IMG/VR virus record: IMGVR_UViG_3300030098_002773
Location: 1-25,669 of that record
Source: a virus
Direction: 5' to 3' (one strand)
DNA: 25,669 nt
In this document: positions 6,752-17,453 of the stretch, piece by piece
Layout of the letters: each line of letters begins with the position of its first letter
Position numbering within the stretch: the stretch's first letter is position 1
The notes under the pieces: generated by a model
Seen by the model: only the letters and a program-made list of their open reading frames with translations
The model's database searches: none
What the model was told of the DNA's origin: nothing
Program-made: the position numbers and the translations under genes

Positions 6752-9700
6752 TTCCATTAATAGATAAAAACAAAATCAATAATGATTCAAGGTCACCCAT
6801 AACGCATTTCGATTATTTAGTCCAAATTATAAGTCAAGACAGAACATTCTATTTAGGCACTAACGCTTTTACGGTAGATGATATATTCTACGATGACATT
6901 ATAGAAAAAATATCTGGTGCCAGTGAAAGTATTGACCTGTTTACAAAAAAAATTAAATTAAGTGGCACAACAATAGTCATAAATAATGGCAAGATTGACT
7001 ATCAAAGTAGATTCTCTGATAAAATACAAGGTGAGATGTTTGGTGCAGTAGTAGACATTTATATCAAATCTGCATCTTGTGACACCCTCCAAGACTGTAT
7101 TAAAATATCTAGCTTGCAAATTACAAGAATAACTCATGATGACAAAACACTTACTATTTCAACAGAGGATAGATACATAGATGAGTTCCATAAAGAACTG
7201 CCATTAACTGAAGACACTTTATATGAAGGCGTAGACACTTTTGTTGGAGACAATGAAAGTAGAATCCCAATACTTTATGGACACTTAAAAGAAGCTCCTG
7301 CTGTTGCTATTATAGAAAACAATGAAGAAGAAAATCCTTTTACAGATAATAATATTATTATAGTTCCAGACAGGGCATTTAAGGAAGAAAATAGAGACAT
7401 TATTGGAATCAAGCCCATATCACCACTAGTTGAGACAGACTCAGAGCCAAATCAATTAATAGAAAAAGATTCATTAAAAATTAAACTAGGAGACTCAGCT
7501 GCTACAGTATACTCTACGCCACCAGACAGGTTGCACAGAGAAATGGCTTTAGGTAATAGCCTTAGAGAGTTTGAGTTTGATACTAAATGGAATACACAAT
7601 ATACTGTATCAGAAGACAAAACACATATTAGATTGCAAACAGAATCTAAACCAGAAAATTCTGAATACACACTACAATCAAATTTATTGTGTGGCGAAGT
7701 AAGTAAGTTGATTGGAACAGAAACATTTAAAACTAAAATATATAGAGCAGATGATGTTATAATTAATATGTCTGATGACGATTATTCTGTTCCACATTAT
7801 AGTGATGATGATACTTATTTAGACTCAACAGCCCCAGTGCCAGAGAACTACGACATGTTAAGTTTGCCTGCGTTTTATTTAGATGATAAAGACACAGATA
7901 CAAATGAGGAAATATTTGAAAACGCTGAAAATGGAATACTTGTAAACATAAATCAATCTAATTATTTGTTTCAAGTTGCAGAAGAAAATTTTGGAGGATT
8001 TCCTTGGACTTCTGCAGTTGGGACGCATTTTGATTTTGACATTCCAGTATTTCAAATAGAATTTGAGCCACTCAAGTGTAGTATTGACCAGTCAAAAGGT
8101 GAAGATGACAGTTATAGTGACGCAATGATTGTTGGCAGGTTTAAACATTTTTCAAAAAAAGTATCATTTGAAAATGGAACTGTTGGGGACGTAGAGCATT
8201 TAGAATATGCTATTTATCCTGCAATAGGTAATCAAGAAACAGAAAATCTTGTAAATGTACAATCTTACAGTTTCGCTCAAGGACAAGCTAGTCCAGATGA
8301 GGTAATACAAATGTCAGAAGATATTTTAGGTTTGCCATCATTTGCAACTGGAGCACTAAATACTTCTTTTACAAATAGACCAGATTGGTTTTCTGGTTAC
8401 TTAGATGGATACGAATTAAACTTAGCTAATTTTTCTAATAGTATATTGCAAAAGTCACCACTTAGAATATATGTAGCAGAAGCACCATCATTAGGTGCTA
8501 CTATAACAGACCATCGACACACATTTCACACTTTGAGACAATCAGATTCTAATACTTGGGTAAATACATGGAGGAACTATTATGAGTCTGTAGAAAGAAT
8601 TAATTGGGTAAATCAAAATATTTTTACTGGTATTGTTATGCCACGTTTTGAAGATGATGTTGTCGATTTCAACCCAACACAACCAAGGGAACTACAGTTA
8701 GCAACTAAAGCTAATTTTAATGGAATGTTTTTAAAACGAGTGTGGTATCAAAAAGACGTATTTAATAAAAAGTTTTTTGTAGATGCAAAGGGTAAATTTA
8801 CAAACAAAACATCTAACACTCTTGGAGATGGTAAAAAACAAATATTAAAAGCAGAAAACGTGTCAATGTTTTATATATCTACAGAGCCTGACTCTGATGA
8901 GAATCTTACAGTTGCACGAGATAAAACTGACCAAGCACTTTTTGAGCTGTATGATTACCTAACAAAAGATAGATTTAAAACTAAATATATAGATGGAGTT
9001 GAGTATGATTTAGTAGTTACGGCATCTTTAAAAAATGATACGAATAACAAAATCGTGTTTTATGATATAGATATTAATGATTTTAGAGTAATTCCAGAAC
9101 CATCAAGAATAAACTATTTATTTAATTTTAATTGTAAAATTTTTAGGAATGTGAACAATGAAACTGATTATGTAGATTTGACAGACATACAAGGCAATAA
9201 CCTTGAGTTTATAGATGTTCAATTAAGATATGCTTCAAAAAATATAAACTCTGCTACAAGTATACATGATAGCTGGACATATTTTGATGAAACAGACAGT
9301 GTGGAAACACCATTTGTTTCAGTTAATTTAAGTGACCAGCTAACATATCAAAACAAATTAGCATATTTTTCTTCAGATTTTCAATTAACAACCAATAGAG
9401 TTGTTAGAATATCAATGGGCAATAATCACCCAATTACATCAAATACTGATGCACAACATGCGTACGCAGAAACATTGATACTAGAAGAAAATAAGGAATT
9501 AATTAGAAAGCCAACTAATGTGATACAAGATATTGCATATAGAGAGCTAGGTATAAATCAGCAAGTATACACAAAAAATGTAAAAGATAATAATTATAAA
9601 CTTGACTTCTCTGTTGATAAAGAATTAGAAGGAATTGAGGTGATGGAGAATATAGCAAAGTCATCACCATTTTTTTATAAAACTCAACTTCACTCAGGTC

Positions 9701-12107: not shown

Positions 12108-13248
12108 ATTATCTGGATATGGTGCTGTTGGTAGCGTTAGACTGTATTGCAGTGTGATACAATACGCCAAGAGCATTGGATATGTAAAAAACATTTTTAA
12201 TAGAAACTGCGAGCCCATAAATGATGAGCTTGCTACACCGTTTGAGTACAATCCAGCAAAATCACAAACATATCAAGCCAATACAGATGAGCCTGTTAGT
12301 GAAATAAGTTTTAACTGTGAGTTTAAAAGCATCGATGAGGGCGACAGAAACTTTGCACAATTATTAAAATTAATTAATTATTACGGAGTATATGGTCATA
12401 ATATATCAACAGCATCAGGCAGCTTTGCAAAAACAAGTATTAAATGCTATGGACTTTCAGCTTTTGAGGATTTTGAATATACAGCAGTTTCTGAAACAGA
12501 GCCACAGTCATATCAAGATATAGTGGGAACCAATCAATCTATGGGCAATGGATACAGCATAGTTGGTGTTGAAAATTTTATGGGTGAAGACACTTATTTT
12601 GAAGCCATAAAAATAGCTCTGGAAGCCAAAGATGGAGAATCTTTTCAAGGTGACCAGTTTGATATAAACGCTATAGATGCTGGTGTATATGTAGACCTGC
12701 CACAAAATGCCAACCTAAATATGAATATTAATTATGATTATGATGGAATCAAGTACAAAAGAACTACAAGTGGAAGAACTATTCCCAATGTTCAATATTA
12801 CAGGGCACCAGATTGGGGTAAATATTCAAGATGGACTCACGTATCAAACGAAGCACTAGACTTATCTAATAGCAATGATGACAACTGGCAAAACAAATTC
12901 AACATGAAAAACGTAGGAACAAACGGAAGAAGGTCATGGGATTTAACATGGTCGTTTTTATCTGAAGAAGACGTGATGCCATTTGTACACGAAGGAAATA
13001 TGTTTGCGAATGGTATGTTAAATGCAAAACACGACACTCACCCTAATTTGCATATCCATGGGGGTACGCCAAAAAGTATAATAGGAACCATTATGACACT
13101 TTCTTTAGGGGGCAAAATTCCCATGGTTTTCCAACCAGATAAAGAAGTTAGAGATTTTATTTGGGTATGTATAGACAAAGGCATATCAATACAACAGGTT
13201 GCACCTAAGATGTACACCATAAAACTAAAATTAACAGAATGTTATTAG
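12097..13248 (+). CDS. Putative distal tail / receptor-binding structural protein
   Basis: A 383-residue protein starting MALKLSGYGAVG. I chose the ATG at 12097 rather than 12091 because GAGGA (12086-12090) touches the earlier ATG and stands six bases from the later one. The protein has many aromatic residues and predicted strands; the segment GRRSWDLTWSFLSEEDVMP (about 275-300) is like beta cores seen in phage tail proteins. It is the last gene before the late terminator, a usual place for distal tail or adsorption proteins. No enzymatic motif is visible, and no specific family is claimed. Confidence 0.6.
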   Translation: MALKLSGYGAVGSVRLYCSVIQYAKSIGYVKNIFNRNCEPINDELATPFEYNPAKSQTYQANTDEPVSEISFNCEFKSIDEGDRNFAQLLKLINYYGVYGHNISTASGSFAKTSIKCYGLSAFEDFEYTAVSETEPQSYQDIVGTNQSMGNGYSIVGVENFMGEDTYFEAIKIALEAKDGESFQGDQFDINAIDAGVYVDLPQNANLNMNINYDYDGIKYKRTTSGRTIPNVQYYRAPDWGKYSRWTHVSNEALDLSNSNDDNWQNKFNMKNVGTNGRRSWDLTWSFLSEEDVMPFVHEGNMFANGMLNAKHDTHPNLHIHGGTPKSIIGTIMTLSLGGKIPMVFQPDKEVRDFIWVCIDKGISIQQVAPKMYTIKLKLTECY

Positions 13249-13266
13249 GCTATAAGTTTCCCTCCA

Positions 13267-13291
13267 ACTAATCGAATAACACTCGACTAGT
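13267..13291. repeat. Imperfect inverted repeat before the terminator
   Basis: Arms ACTAATCGA (13267-13275) and TCGACTAGT (13283-13291) are complementary at eight of nine positions around a seven-base loop. It lies 12 bases before the terminator stem and has no U-run of its own. It may protect the 3' end of the late mRNA, or be a protein-binding site. Confidence 0.45.
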
Positions 13292-13302
13292 AGGCATAAA
13301 AG

Positions 13303-13334
13303 AGCCCTTTTCTTAATCGTTAAGGGCTTTTTTT
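13303..13334 (+). terminator. Rho-independent terminator of the late (tail) operon
   Basis: AGCCCTT (13303-13309) pairs with AAGGGCT (13322-13328) around a 12-base loop, followed by seven T residues (13328-13334). It lies 54 bases after the last tail gene and before the early gene block, so it separates late and early transcripts. It is the only clear intrinsic terminator in the window. Confidence 0.88.
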
Positions 13335-13335
13335 A

Positions 13336-13424
13336 TTGTCAAAAAACACTTTTTTAAAATTAAATGTTTGGTTTTTAAATATAAAGTGTAATATATTCAT
13401 TTAAGGTTGTTGGGACTTTATAAC
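13336..13424 (+). promoter_or_regulatory. Candidate early promoter region
   Basis: This AT-rich gap between terminator and the first early gene offers several weak sigma70-like pairs: TTGTCA (13336-13341) with TTAAAT (13360-13365, 18-base spacer), and TTGGTT (13368-13373) with TATATT (13392-13397, 18-base spacer). A TATAAC at 13419-13424 also stands alone. A promoter here is expected because transcription must restart after the terminator, but the sequence does not decide which pair is used. Confidence 0.35.
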
Positions 13425-13427
13425 ATA

Positions 13428-13436
13428 AACAAGGAG
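13428..13436 (+). promoter_or_regulatory. SD leader AACAAGGAG of the first early gene
   Basis: AACAAGGAG precedes the ATG at 13442. The same nine bases occur before the genes at 13971 and 14237, and are the exact complement of 16681-16689 inside the structured element downstream. Confidence 0.6.
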
Positions 13437-13441
13437 TTAAA

Positions 13442-13849
13442 ATGAAATATATTGAAAATCACGGTGGTAGAGAAAAGTATTACCCCACTAAGCTAAAAAA
13501 AGACAGAGCAGGGGATTGTGTTGTTAGGGCAATAGCAATAGCAACTGAGCAAGATTATCTAGAAGTGAGAGATGGTTTGTTTGAGGTAGCGAAAGAGATT
13601 GGGTTTATGCCAAACGACACAAAGACCTATCGGTTGTATTTGGAAAGAAAAGGTTGGACTAGAAAATCTCCACTTAAAAATGGTAAGAAAAAATATAAAG
13701 TCAAAAACATCGCTAAGTTTTTTCAAGGGGAAAATGTTATTATCCACACTTGCCATCATTTAACAACATTGATTGACGGAAATTTAAACGACACTTGGGA
13801 TTGCAGGGAGTGGAAGGCAAATTCATATTATACAAAGGAGCAAGCATGA
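13442..13849 (+). CDS. Papain-like / C39-like cysteine peptidase-fold protein
   Basis: A 135-residue protein. GDCVVRAIAIAT (Cys26) opens a helix as in papain-like folds; HHLTTLIDG (His106) followed by NDTWD (Asp117) supplies the His and Asp of a plausible Cys-His-Asp triad, with a conserved-looking GW (71-72) between. Small phage proteins with this Cys...His...Asp pattern are common and usually uncharacterised. It is the first gene after the early promoter region, so it is probably expressed early, and its stop overlaps the next start (ATGA). It could cleave a host protein, act on peptidoglycan, or be a transglutaminase-like or inactive relative. No signal peptide is visible. The fold call is by motif; the substrate is unknown. 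Confidence 0.55.
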   Translation: MKYIENHGGREKYYPTKLKKDRAGDCVVRAIAIATEQDYLEVRDGLFEVAKEIGFMPNDTKTYRLYLERKGWTRKSPLKNGKKKYKVKNIAKFFQGENVIIHTCHHLTTLIDGNLNDTWDCREWKANSYYTKEQA

Positions 13850-13971
13850 ATGTAGAACATCAATACATAGACGGAGTGCAGTGCGACAATGAGGATTGCT
13901 ATGCCTGTGCTAAGATGAAAGATTGTAATAGGTTAGATGAGTTAGATAAACAAAACAAGGAGAACAAGTAA
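13846..13971 (+). CDS. 41-residue Cys-rich microprotein
   Basis: A short ORF with overlaps at both ends: ATG within ATGA of the preceding gene, and TAA within TAATG of the next. An AAAGGAG SD lies before it. It contains four Cys (residues 13, 18, 21, 27) in a spacing that could bind one zinc ion, and a charged helical end rich in Lys, Asp, Glu and Asn. Too short for family recognition. The precise fit between neighbours and good SD argue that it is translated. Confidence 0.6.
   Translation: MNVEHQYIDGVQCDNEDCYACAKMKDCNRLDELDKQNKENK
13954..13962 (+). promoter_or_regulatory. SD leader AACAAGGAG of the gene at 13971
   Basis: The second copy of AACAAGGAG, eight bases before the ATG at 13971. 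It is fully complementary to 16681-16689 of the structured element. Confidence 0.55.
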
Positions 13972-14237
13972 TGAACTATATAACAGAGCTATGTGGCAGT
14001 GTATTTGGGTCAAATACGCAAGAATTACTAGAGTCGCATGATAAGCATAGCAAAGATAAAACCTTGCTTAAAATCAAAGAAAAGATTAAACTAATCGGTT
14101 GGGGTGGGTATCATATTGTCGGCTATATAAACGGACATAAATACTACAAAGTCAAATTGCATGATGGGACATTAATCACAATGGAGAAGAATGGACGTGT
14201 CATGCACATATTACAAGATAAAACAAGGAGGTCATAA
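13971..14237 (+). CDS. Small early protein of unknown function
   Basis: An 88-residue basic protein; the central part (GWGGYHIVGYINGHKYYKVKLHDGTLITME) looks like a small beta barrel or sheet, preceded by a Lys-rich helix. Start and stop overlap neighbouring genes (TAATG at both ends), so it is translationally coupled to the annealing-like protein that follows. Possibly nucleic-acid binding by charge and context, but no family is recognised. Confidence 0.6.
   Translation: MNYITELCGSVFGSNTQELLESHDKHSKDKTLLKIKEKIKLIGWGGYHIVGYINGHKYYKVKLHDGTLITMEKNGRVMHILQDKTRRS
14222..14231 (+). promoter_or_regulatory. SD leader AACAAGGAGG of the annealing-like gene
   Basis: The third copy, extended by one base: AACAAGGAGG, with the full consensus SD AAGGAGG five bases from the ATG at 14237. 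All ten bases are complementary to CCTCCTTGTT at 16680-16689. Confidence 0.6.
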
Positions 14238-14716
14238 TGCCAGTTAAAATACATGGTAAGGAATATTACACAGTAGCAGAACGATTAAACGAATTAAATA
14301 AACATACTGAGGGACAATACTCTTTAGAGACAGAAATGGTTTATTTTCAAGATGGTATGGTTGTTTTTAAAGCGAGCCTGCAAGTTGGTGACAGCACTTA
14401 CGTTGGACATGCGATGGAAAAGGAAAGTGCAAACATGATTAATAAAACTAGTTATGTTGAGGTAGCAGAGACTTCAGCGATTGGACGCTGTCTCGCATCA
14501 GCAGGCTACTTGGGTTCTGAGTTTGCTTCGGCTGATGAGGTTGCAACTGCTATTTATAATCAAAGTCCAAATTCGCAAGCGGCATCGGATAAGCAAATAA
14601 ACTATATTAAAAAGCTATGCGAAAAAAATGGGCTACAAGTAGACCAATATGTAACAAAAGAAATGAGCATGCAAACTGCAAGCGAAGTAATAGAAAAACT
14701 TCACAACACAATTTAG
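14237..14716 (+). CDS. Erf/ssDNA-annealing-like phage recombination protein
   Basis: A 159-residue protein. Residues about 55-115 include TSYVEVAETSAIGRCLASAGYLG and ASADEVATA, a pattern widespread in phage proteins in the position of Erf/RecT-type annealing or ssDNA-binding proteins. The C-terminus (about 120-159, ASDKQINYIKKLCEKNGL ... ASEVIEKL) is the small helical module often fused to such proteins. It lies beside replication genes and upstream of RusA, consistent with annealing and resolution of replication intermediates. It has the strongest SD in the window. Biochemical activity is inferred; Erf itself is longer (about 200 residues), so this may only be a related core. Confidence 0.5.
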   Translation: MPVKIHGKEYYTVAERLNELNKHTEGQYSLETEMVYFQDGMVVFKASLQVGDSTYVGHAMEKESANMINKTSYVEVAETSAIGRCLASAGYLGSEFASADEVATAIYNQSPNSQAASDKQINYIKKLCEKNGLQVDQYVTKEMSMQTASEVIEKLHNTI

Positions 14717-14726
14717 GGGGTGTAAA

Positions 14727-14921
14727 ATGGTAATACATGAAGTAGAGTTTACAGGTACAGGACAAACGCAATCGGCTTACTTTTCTAGTAAGTCGAAAGC
14801 TGACAAGTTTATATCAGCAAATGCTACACATATAAACGTCAAGAGTGTTAAAATACATACGATGGAAAAGACTAAACAGCAATTTATTAAGTTTTTAAAT
14901 CGCAATAACGGAATAGGTTAG
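14727..14921 (+). CDS. Small early protein of unknown function
   Basis: A 64-residue protein (MVIHEVEFTGTGQTQSAYFS at the start) with an alternating strand-helix-strand pattern and a basic C-terminus. It has a strong SD (AGGGGGTG). The TAG stop lies inside the 19-bp repeat that carries the SD and start of the methyltransferase. No recognisable motif. Confidence 0.55.
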   Translation: MVIHEVEFTGTGQTQSAYFSSKSKADKFISANATHINVKSVKIHTMEKTKQQFIKFLNRNNGIG

Positions 14922-14937
14922 GAGAACATATGGCAAA
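14919..14937 (+). repeat. Direct repeat copy 1 (TAGGAGAACATATGGCAAA)
   Basis: This 19-bp unit contains the stop of the preceding gene, the SD and the first codons of the methyltransferase gene. It is identical to 15524-15542, so the methyltransferase gene is bounded by exact direct repeats. Confidence 0.9.
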
Positions 14938-15526
14938 TCAAAATAAAATTATATTAGATTTATGTGGTGGAACTGGTTCTTGGAGCAAACCATATAAACA
15001 GAATGGATATGATGTAAGATTGATAACATTGCCTGATAATGACGTTAGAGAGTATAATCCCCCTAAAAATGTGTACGGAATACTTGCAGCACCTCCATGC
15101 GACCAATTTAGCTTTGCTAAAACAACTGGCAAGCCAAGGGATTTAGAATCTGCATATGAGATAGTCAATGCGTGTTTAAACATTATAGCTAAATGTCAAT
15201 ATGAACTAATAAGTCCATATGCTAAAACTACATCATTAAAATTTTGGGCATTGGAAAACCCTAAAGGTTTATTAAAAAGGTTTTTAGGCAGACCTTGCTA
15301 TGAATTTAATCCATATGACTTTGGTGATAATTACAAAAAAGCTACTTGTTTATGGGGTTGGTTTAATTTTCCAAAAAAAAATCCAATAAAATGTGATAAG
15401 GTTAAATTTGACAGAATGAAATCGAAAGACATTCACCCTGAGTATTTTGGTAAGTATACTAGATTAGAAAGAAGGTCAATGACACCACAAGGTTTTGCAA
15501 AAGCATTTTACAACAAAAATAAATAG
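14930..15526 (+). CDS. Small C5-cytosine DNA methyltransferase-like protein
   Basis: A 198-residue protein with the C5-methyltransferase motifs in order: motif I ILDLCGGTG (8-16, AdoMet binding), motif IV APPCDQFS with the catalytic Cys57, and motif VI ENPKG (109-113). It should methylate cytosine in DNA, protecting phage DNA from host restriction, or modify a hypermodification precursor. At 198 residues it is much shorter than Dcm-type enzymes (usually above 300) and lacks room for a standard target-recognition domain; such compact forms are common in phages. No cognate restriction enzyme gene is adjacent. The gene is flanked by an exact 19-bp direct repeat of its own initiation site, suggesting a separately acquired cassette. 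Confidence 0.75.
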   Translation: MANQNKIILDLCGGTGSWSKPYKQNGYDVRLITLPDNDVREYNPPKNVYGILAAPPCDQFSFAKTTGKPRDLESAYEIVNACLNIIAKCQYELISPYAKTTSLKFWALENPKGLLKRFLGRPCYEFNPYDFGDNYKKATCLWGWFNFPKKNPIKCDKVKFDRMKSKDIHPEYFGKYTRLERRSMTPQGFAKAFYNKNK

Positions 15527-15542
15527 GAGAACATATGGCAAA
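15524..15542 (+). repeat. Direct repeat copy 2 (TAGGAGAACATATGGCAAA)
   Basis: Identical to 14919-14937. Here it holds the methyltransferase stop plus the SD and start codons of the HTH gene. Recombination between the copies would delete the methyltransferase gene exactly and leave the HTH gene with an intact ribosome-binding site. Confidence 0.9.
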
Positions 15543-15789
15543 GCAATCACAAAAAGATAAAATATTAAAACATTTAGAAGACGGCAACTCGATTACTCCA
15601 ATAGAAGCATTAGATCAGTTTGGTTGTTTTAGGCTAGCAGATGTAATCTTTCGCTTAAAACAAGATGGTTATGATATACAAACTAGTATGATAGAAAAAG
15701 GTGAAAAAAGATATGCTAGCTATCGACTGATGAGTACTAATGGCGAACTAAATCTAGGAAATACTACTAGATTTAAATACCCTGATTAA
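15535..15789 (+). CDS. Winged helix-turn-helix protein
   Basis: An 84-residue protein. DKILKHLEDGNSITPIEALD, then FGCFRLADVIFRLKQDGYDI, matches the small phage HTH family (Pfam HTH_39-like) in which a recognition helix is followed by a two-stranded wing (KGEKRYASYRL). It likely binds DNA as a regulator or replication accessory. It lies just upstream of the replisome organizer. It shares its initiation sequence with the methyltransferase gene through the 19-bp repeat. Confidence 0.7.
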   Translation: MAKQSQKDKILKHLEDGNSITPIEALDQFGCFRLADVIFRLKQDGYDIQTSMIEKGEKRYASYRLMSTNGELNLGNTTRFKYPD

Positions 15790-15820
15790 ACTATATTAAC
15801 TACAAGGATAGGAGCAAAAT

Positions 15821-16657
15821 ATGAGGAATAGAATCTTGCAAAAGACATTTTGGACATCTGATGAGATACTTGAGCTAGAGCTATATGAGAGATTATTATT
15901 CTTAGGCATGACGAACTATGCAGATGACGAAGGCATAATAAAGACATCGCCAAAAGGCTTAAAAGCAAAGATATTTCCTGCTGATGAAATTGCAATAGTA
16001 AAAATATCAGAGTCGCTTGAAAAGATGGCAGATTTAGGCTTAATTAAGTTTAATGAAGATAGGTCACTTTGCAGATTTACAAAATGGCATGATCATCAAA
16101 AAATTAACAGACCCTATCCATCAAAATTTAATTTTATAGACGAGAACAATGATGATTCAGTGAATGTTCATGGAATGGTGCGTGATGATTCACCCCCTAA
16201 TAATAATAATAATAAGAAAAAGAATAGTAAAAAGAAAAAGATAGAAAATAATGAATTTCGTGTGTGGTATGATATTTATCCTAGAAAGATAGCAAAGCCA
16301 AAAGCTAAACATAGTTTTAATGCTATGATGAATAAGTATGACCTAGAAGAAATAATGGACGGCACTACAAGATGGGTGGAATATTGGGAGAACGCACATA
16401 CAGAAAAAAGATATATACCTTACCCTGCTACATTTTTAAATCAAGCAAGGTTTTTAGATGAACCTGATGAGTTAGAGACAGAGGTATTGTTTTCTTTAGA
16501 TTCCACAGGACTTTTCTATGTGGGATTCTGTGCTCAATGTAAAAAATCAGCTTTTTATAAAAAAGAAGAACTAAGTCAAGACTCTAAATGTTGTAAGAGT
16601 AAAATATTACCTAACAGAGATGTTAATTTAATACAAGACGTTAATGCAGAAGCATAG
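15821..16657 (+). CDS. DnaD-like replisome organizer / replication initiation protein
   Basis: A 278-residue protein. The N-terminus (about 1-105: TFWTSDEILELELYERLLFL, then a wing and FTKWHDHQKINRPYPSKF) is the winged-helix domain typical of phage replisome organizers. A low-complexity linker (NNNNNKKKNSKKKK, about 127-140) leads to a helical domain (WYDIYPRKIAKPKAKHSF ... IPYPATFLNQARF, about 147-213) found in helicase-loading replication proteins. A C-terminal module has Cys237-x2-Cys240 and Cys257-Cys258, a possible zinc site. It probably binds the phage origin and recruits host helicase, since no phage helicase or polymerase is present. SD is TAGGAG before ATG 15821. The downstream non-coding element could be part of the origin. 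Confidence 0.75.
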   Translation: MRNRILQKTFWTSDEILELELYERLLFLGMTNYADDEGIIKTSPKGLKAKIFPADEIAIVKISESLEKMADLGLIKFNEDRSLCRFTKWHDHQKINRPYPSKFNFIDENNDDSVNVHGMVRDDSPPNNNNNKKKNSKKKKIENNEFRVWYDIYPRKIAKPKAKHSFNAMMNKYDLEEIMDGTTRWVEYWENAHTEKRYIPYPATFLNQARFLDEPDELETEVLFSLDSTGLFYVGFCAQCKKSAFYKKEELSQDSKCCKSKILPNRDVNLIQDVNAEA

Positions 16658-16660
16658 ATT

Positions 16661-16750
16661 TATAGAGCAGTCACTTGCTCCTCCTTGTTCGTGTTCCCAA
16701 CAACATCGAACATACTCACCTATAACTCCAGTAGTGAGGGCTGCTCTATA
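16661..16750 (+). ncRNA. Structured non-coding element (predicted three-way junction, anti-SD loop)
   Basis: A 90-base element fills the only gap in the replication block. P1: TATAGAGCAG (16661-16670) pairs perfectly with CTGCTCTATA (16741-16750). P2: TGTTCGTGTT (16686-16695) pairs with AACA/CGAACA (16702-16705, 16707-16712), ten pairs with one bulged T and a six-base loop. P3: CTCAC (16715-16719) pairs with GTGAG (16734-16738). An alternative extends P1 with TCACT/AGTGA (16671-16675, 16733-16737), breaking P3. The single-stranded joint 16671-16685 holds CCTCCT of an anti-SD sequence. No known RNA family is recognised. It may be a small RNA, a leader switch for the next gene, or a DNA structure such as an origin. 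Strand is assumed from the operon. Confidence 0.5.
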
Positions 16751-16984
16751 ATGCACGTACTTGAAAGCTATTTTATGGCACTAGTTTTGTTTCAGCCAAT
16801 AGAAGAACTATACACTTGTAATCACCCAAACACCATAGACAACAATCAACAATTTTTGTGTAACTGGGTAGATCAAGATTTTAGAGTAAACAAATATGGA
16901 AACAGAGTGTTAAAAAAATACAATAAAGATGACAATTTTATAAAAGCATATTACAGACGTAAATATTGGAGTAAGAATGACTAA
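16751..16984 (+). CDS. Small protein of unknown function after the structured element
   Basis: A 77-residue protein starting MHVLESYFMALVLF. A longer reading from 16685 is open, but its first 22 codons would be translated through the folded element, so ATG 16751, immediately after the closing stem, is preferred. The only SD-like sequence, GAGGG (16736-16740), is 10 bases upstream and lies inside the predicted stems, so initiation may depend on RNA refolding. The C-terminus is basic and aromatic (FIKAYYRRKYWSKND). No family recognised. It overlaps the next gene by eight bases. Confidence 0.5.
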   Translation: MHVLESYFMALVLFQPIEELYTCNHPNTIDNNQQFLCNWVDQDFRVNKYGNRVLKKYNKDDNFIKAYYRRKYWSKND

Positions 16985-17198
16985 ACTAGATAGATTTGTA
17001 GGACAAAGAAACATAGAGAAGTCAAGAAAATACAAGGAAAGTTTTGTAGATGGTGGCAAGATATGCAGCAAATGTAAAGAAATAAAACCATTAGAAGAAT
17101 ACAATAAGAGACAAGGTGGAGTAACAGCTAATTGCAAATCATGCATATATGAATATAACAAAAAACGATGGGCAAGAAATAAACAACCATTATGGTAA
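16977..17198 (+). CDS. Small zinc-finger protein (HNH-leader type)
   Basis: A 73-residue basic protein with Cys30-x2-Cys33 and Cys53-x2-Cys56 around KEIKPLEEYNKRQGG. This four-Cys layout is the N-terminal zinc-binding part often found in phage HNH endonucleases, but the HNH domain itself is missing and the gene ends at 17198. It could be a stand-alone DNA-binding protein or a remnant of a homing-type nuclease. SD GGAG precedes the ATG. Confidence 0.6.
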   Translation: MTKLDRFVGQRNIEKSRKYKESFVDGGKICSKCKEIKPLEEYNKRQGGVTANCKSCIYEYNKKRWARNKQPLW

Positions 17199-17207
17199 GG
17201 AGTTAAT

Positions 17208-17453
17208 ATGAAAATATCAAGAATGACAAGAGGTAGTTGGGGTAAGATTGTAGCTTTTTTTGATGTAGAGCTAAGTGGTATGACAGTAAAAGGATTTAAA
17301 CTTATAAGTGGGCAAGATGGCTTGTTTGTAGGGGTACCATCAATAAAAAAAGAAGACGGCACATACGATAACACAGTATTTGTAGAAAAAGAAAAGATGC
17401 CAATGCTTAATCAAATAGCTACAATGGAATATGACAAAGAACAAGATTATTAA
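17208..17453 (+). CDS. SpoVG-like nucleic-acid-binding protein
   Basis: An 81-residue protein matching the SpoVG fold and length: MKISRMTRGSWGKIVAFFDVEL, then VKGFKLISGQDGLFVGVPS and a KKEDGTYDN turn. The GxxGLFVxxPS block is the family hallmark. Bacterial SpoVG proteins bind DNA and RNA and act as regulators; phage copies are known but poorly studied. The C-terminal helix that bacterial SpoVG uses for DNA recognition is short here. Strong SD (AAGGAG). Its end overlaps the nuclease-like gene by 23 bases. Confidence 0.8.
   Translation: MKISRMTRGSWGKIVAFFDVELSGMTVKGFKLISGQDGLFVGVPSIKKEDGTYDNTVFVEKEKMPMLNQIATMEYDKEQDY

Follow-up and report, generated by a model that had tools for sequence, protein, structure and literature searches.

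What does a strongly structured 90-nt stretch do between a replication gene and the gene that follows it in a phage genome, and does it act as DNA, as RNA or as coding sequence? The window, i.e., the whole stretch of 25,669 nucleotides that was analyzed, represents most of a 30,419-base IMG/VR virus record (IMGVR_UViG_3300030098_002773). As the original prediction had stated from its place behind a replisome organizer gene, the element lies directly 3' of a gene for replication initiation (PHROG match, E 3.6e-26). The features of the locus are as follows.

15821-16657, plus strand: replication initiation protein (replisome organizer type), 278 aa, with a zinc-ribbon C-terminus; PHROGs 270, 2149 and 1408.
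16644-16751, plus strand: small 'transit' ORF of 35 codons plus TAA, MQKHRFIEQSLAPPCSCSQQHRTYSPITPVVRAAL; stop-free frame in 20 of 20 copies.
16661-16672, plus strand: 5' arm of stem P1; 10 perfect pairs, 12 with U-G and C-G; covariation, pairing probability about 1.
16686-16712, plus strand: P2 hairpin; ten pairs with one bulge, probability 0.8-1.0.
16715-16738, plus strand: P3 hairpin of the original prediction (16715-16719 with 16734-16738); weak and not conserved, probability 0.34-0.62.
16736-16740, plus strand: GAGGG, a Shine-Dalgarno (SD)-like word for the 77-aa gene, hidden by predicted pairing, with a probability of 0.00-0.01 of being unpaired in its context.
16739-16750, plus strand: 3' arm of P1, immediately before the start codon at 16751; from sequence and covariation.
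16751-16984, plus strand: downstream gene of 77 aa, the probable target of control; homologues found, no known family match.

The predicted folding of positions 16661-16750 (90 nt) was far from ordinary, with a minimum free energy of -30.7 kcal/mol and a z of -5.96, and none of 200 dinucleotide shuffles was as good, a comparison that had been proposed at the outset and that the element withstood. Among 1280 plus-strand windows of 90 nt, it had the lowest energy and ranked in the top three by z, with less distinct folding on the reverse strand (z -2.90). The lowest z of the same scan belonged to another strongly structured stretch at 9261-9350, within a 1621-aa gene (z -5.7 to -6.7). The perfect 10-bp closing stem (16661-16670 with 16741-16750) and the bulged ten-pair hairpin described originally were both present, P1 and P2 being near certain in the predicted ensemble. 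Of the proposed three-way junction, the stem and P2 stood, but the junction itself was one of several folds, and P3 was absent from the homologues, where its region lengthens P1. The competing pairing of TCACT with AGTGA, on which a switch had been postulated, had a probability of 0.00, and its region likewise serves to lengthen P1 in homologues, so that a two-state switch finds no support. The impression that the element belongs to no known RNA class was borne out, as the Rfam 15 search of the window gave no match to it at the gathering score and a tRNA search of the element gave none. Rfam matches of the window and its relatives at loose E-values were dismissed as chance, and a search of the relatives at E up to 1 returned gltS only (0.82, below gathering).

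A phage DNA search with the element found no match, and the element's own DNA, like exact scans with the stem word and with P2, retrieved near-identical phages only. The 77-aa protein as query yielded 20 loci and an alignment of 77-aa proteins 38, with more loci obtained via the sequence at the replication-gene end and remote ones via the replication-protein alignment. The element copies collected from related uncultured phages numbered 20, of which 14 are followed by the 77-aa gene and six (L064, L073, L074, L075, L076 and L077; the L064 subgroup) lack it while retaining P1 and P2. These copies sit 3' of the replication gene, of a gene for another protein whose C-terminal zinc region is similar, or, in L040 and L080, of an unrelated gene. 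In L080 (2124-2738), this unrelated gene carries the IQDINAQA tail and the DNA word AATGCANAAGCATAR found in the replication proteins, which looks as though the tail had moved together with the element as one module, and in L040 a gene related to that of L080 reads through the element. The model R1 recovered one convincing copy per genome, missing the diverged copy of L040, and no convincing second copy was found within the same genomes.

Comparison of the copies revealed that P1, 12-20 bp long (16 bp in L066 and L084, 20 bp in L082), was conserved by compensatory change. RNAalifold, applied to 19 sequences, found P1 unaided, with 7 of 9 pairs doubly changed; 91.9% of the P1 cells were paired vs 34-54% in a control with the partners slid, and double-change cells numbered 32 against a shuffled mean of 9.5. 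The paired positions thus compensate, as a genuine structure had been expected to do. Alignment columns 3-11 held a standard pair in 19 of 19 sequences, with G-U as the only wobble; the hand-paired stems gave 179 Watson-Crick, 40 G-U and 0 A-C pairs, although they end at the first mismatch by construction, so that the fixed columns are the fair wobble test. Since the wobbles are G-U and never A-C, the pairing pattern indicates that the element acts as plus-strand RNA. The remainder of the element was far more variable: P2 was a hairpin of varying sequence in most copies, with modest support from two doubly changed pairs in the L064 subgroup, and the interior differed greatly in length, with 3 invariant columns out of 118.

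The wobble type also bears on the role of DNA origin that the place of the element had implied, and origin DNA or a cruciform was rejected on this ground. An origin element beside the initiator gene, or else an independent noncoding RNA, would suit the position 3' of the replication initiator and the stable fold, but given the plus-strand G-U wobbles without A-C, an open frame across the region and no recognizable origin repeats, this explanation is very improbable.

All 14 copies with the 77-aa gene have its start codon either within the 3' arm of P1 or at the end of this arm, which also carries a G-rich SD-like word, and the register holds despite varying P1 sequence and element length, suggesting that the element controls translation of the next gene. 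In the window, 10 nt separate the SD-like word from the ATG, which is somewhat long, and the A of this ATG has an unpaired probability of 0.05 in the predicted ensemble; the SD and/or start codon are thus predicted to be paired in a stable helix, as in the ribosome-binding site (RBS)-sequestering hairpins of phages. Moreover, in 24 of 24 surveyed loci an upstream ORF has its stop codon overlapping the start of the 77-aa gene, as expected for coupled gene pairs. In loci without the element, it overlaps a long upstream gene directly (ATGA, GTGA and similar), and in those with the element the overlapping ORF is the small ORF or, in L040, the gene reading through the element. The 77-aa protein had no match in Pfam or PHROG or in a PDB fold search, including its AlphaFold model (mean pLDDT 82). 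With regard to the host, no relatives of it were found in genome contigs, where matches to the replication gene were distant. Further downstream, a phage-encoded SpoVG-family protein (Pfam PF04026) lies at 17208-17453.

Similar arrangements were observed among the relatives. In the remote L105-L108, the ATG of a different gene lies inside the 3' arm of a similar long stem (L105:1501-1900; z -5.9 and -4.8), the differences between the L105 and L106 stems are compensated, and the gene starting there encodes an endonuclease-VII-like zinc protein, judged by its similarity to the gene at 16977 of the window. In the remote analogues L106-L108 and L111, the through-running frame is broken, which counts against coupling. 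In L110-L112, an apparent long structure (TGGGAGTT/AACTCCCA) encloses further hairpins 3' of a replication-like gene that has only the zinc-ribbon tail in common with the replication protein. A second conserved RNA-like motif, absent from the window, consists of a hairpin, GTCGAAAAGGAGAAGGGTG and a hairpin near the next start codon (L064:400-470; L073 and L074, minus strand; L075:440-500; L077:1250-1315; L082:760-825; L053:945-1010; L066:2275-2345); it had no Rfam match at gathering, and its true matches were confined to the same phage group. In the L064 subgroup the small ORF continues past P1, in some copies into this second motif.

The original prediction had placed the element in a gap of the genome, which proved mistaken, as the small ORF, shorter than the 45-aa cut-off of the initial ORF search, spans the entire element and overlaps both neighboring genes. 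Its ATG at 16644 falls within the final codons of the replication gene, 11 nt before the stop codon, with no evident SD ahead of it, and the final A of its TAA at 16749-16751 is also the first base of the 77-aa start codon (TAATG). The sole real gap nearby, at 13249-13441, separates the structural genes from the replication gene block and contains an intrinsic-terminator-like hairpin (AAGAGCCCTT...AAGGGCTTTTTTT, about 13300-13335). The frame of the small ORF was open in every copy, with the other frames mostly interrupted; its per-copy chance of staying open in shuffles was 9-58%, and the product over nine copies, 2.7e-7, is overstated because the copies share ancestry. Substitutions over all pairs were synonymous at about chance level, and at expectation in most pairs, without the synonymous excess of a conserved small protein; the amino acids were not conserved and no codon run was present. 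A frame kept open while its amino acids drift suggests, at the sequence level, that the passage of ribosomes is favored over a peptide.

An ordinary small protein gene, structured by chance in its coding sequence, would account for the frame being open in all copies, for the conserved start M(Q/H)KH and for the comparison of L084 with L061, in which 3 of 3 differences are synonymous. It is nevertheless improbable, considering that synonymous changes over all pairs remain at chance level, that the conserved ends are explained by the replication-gene overlap and by P1, and that the P1 compensations change amino acids; a conserved peptide was rejected on the negative synonymous test. Frameshifting or readthrough of the replication gene was likewise rejected: the small ORF lies in frame +1 and keeps an in-frame ATG, and no convincing slip site was seen, so that a restart is probably simpler.

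From the computed stem, with its covariation, its plus-strand nature and its fixed position relative to SD and start codon, and from the open frame and the overlaps, we infer that the stem represses, that the small ORF is translated and that translation is coupled. The element would thereby serve in translational coupling, with ribosomes that read the small ORF opening the stem that masks the next start, a reading to which we give a probability of roughly 0.55. It would be an intercistronic, cis-acting RNA within the replication-gene transcript. In the untranslated state, the long stem P1, capped by variable hairpins, would pair the SD-like word and abut or contain the 77-aa start codon, and the gene masked in this way would have no independent initiation. 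Ribosomes finishing the replication gene would restart on the small ORF and translate through the stem, which would melt; upon termination on the next start codon (TAATG, ATGA, GTGA or ATGNTAG), the same or newly loaded ribosomes would start the 77-aa gene. For such coupling the open frame would count and the peptide hardly.

The best reading is that the element unites two known principles, namely RBS-sequestering phage hairpins and coupling by RNA unfolding or reinitiation. Hairpins of the first kind are known in T4-like phages for I-TevI, I-TevII, I-TevIII, segB and mobE, as well as soc and e (PMC2988022, PMC3014915). As in these, the SD and/or start codon of a phage gene is hidden in a stable RNA helix, here a predicted one (PMC2988022, PMC3014915), whereas in T4 a late promoter inside the structure avoids the mask and here an ORF runs through the stem; as far as tested, the two are not homologous. 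A search of 13200-17300, confined to sigma-70-like promoters, found none able to free the RBS. Coupling by RNA unfolding and restart at overlaps of 1-8 nt are both established (PMC12548453, PMC10666635). The element resembles the former (MS2 coat-lysis, rpmI-rplT) in upstream translation through a masking structure and termination-reinitiation coupling in its stop/start overlap (PMC12548453, PMC10666635). It differs from both in its dedicated small upstream ORF with free amino acids and in a stem that is itself a conserved, covarying element. Structure immediately following an upstream stop codon is reported to be able to lower coupling (PMC12548453), which counts against the model. The strongest objection to coupling is the L064 subgroup, in which six copies retain the stem without the 77-aa gene. 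As P1 and P2 were kept after the loss of this gene, the element may have a further role, e.g., in mRNA processing.

In T7, imperfect duplexes between early genes serve as intercistronic RNase III sites. A duplex of this type, cut or protecting mRNA ends, would make the fate of the replication gene independent of that of the following genes. It agrees with the retention of the stem in the L064 subgroup, with a long stem conserved more in shape than in sequence, and with the intercistronic place, and the element shares with the T7 sites an imperfect duplex, here known as a predicted stem, between genes. P1 alone, however, has only 12-20 bp, shorter than usual, and is fixed to a start codon, a register that such a duplex leaves unexplained together with the open frame; this explanation is conceivable but unlikely.

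In leader-peptide regulated translation of the erm type, a short ORF precedes a structure that masks the next start. The element is similar in having a short, leader-like ORF ahead of a predicted start-masking stem, and a regulated switch could accordingly operate by leader-peptide stalling, as a riboswitch, or as a protein-bound operator, e.g., for autogenous control by the replication protein. Loop words partly conserved within subgroups and the absence of further sites from the genome, which an autogenous operator would also show, would be compatible with this. However, the element is intercistronic and has neither a conserved stalling peptide, its small ORF being neither conserved nor bearing a codon run, nor a conserved alternative pairing; with so variable an interior, no ligand-binding core common to the homologues was found, and Rfam gave no match. 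A regulated switch is therefore quite unlikely, and coupling through the small ORF is preferred.

The structured RNA is a conserved, uncatalogued family in uncultured phages, of a known functional kind. Its discovery carries the caution that, in compact genomes, structures that look intergenic may in fact be translated. Moreover, stem copies with a through-running ORF and stemless loci with direct gene overlap offer a natural contrast for coupling by RNA unfolding. More tentatively, these phages may possess a 'transit ORF' RNA family, in which the frame is selected to be open and the amino acids are free, the ORF solely carrying ribosomes through a start-masking stem and thereby tying later genes to replication-initiator output.
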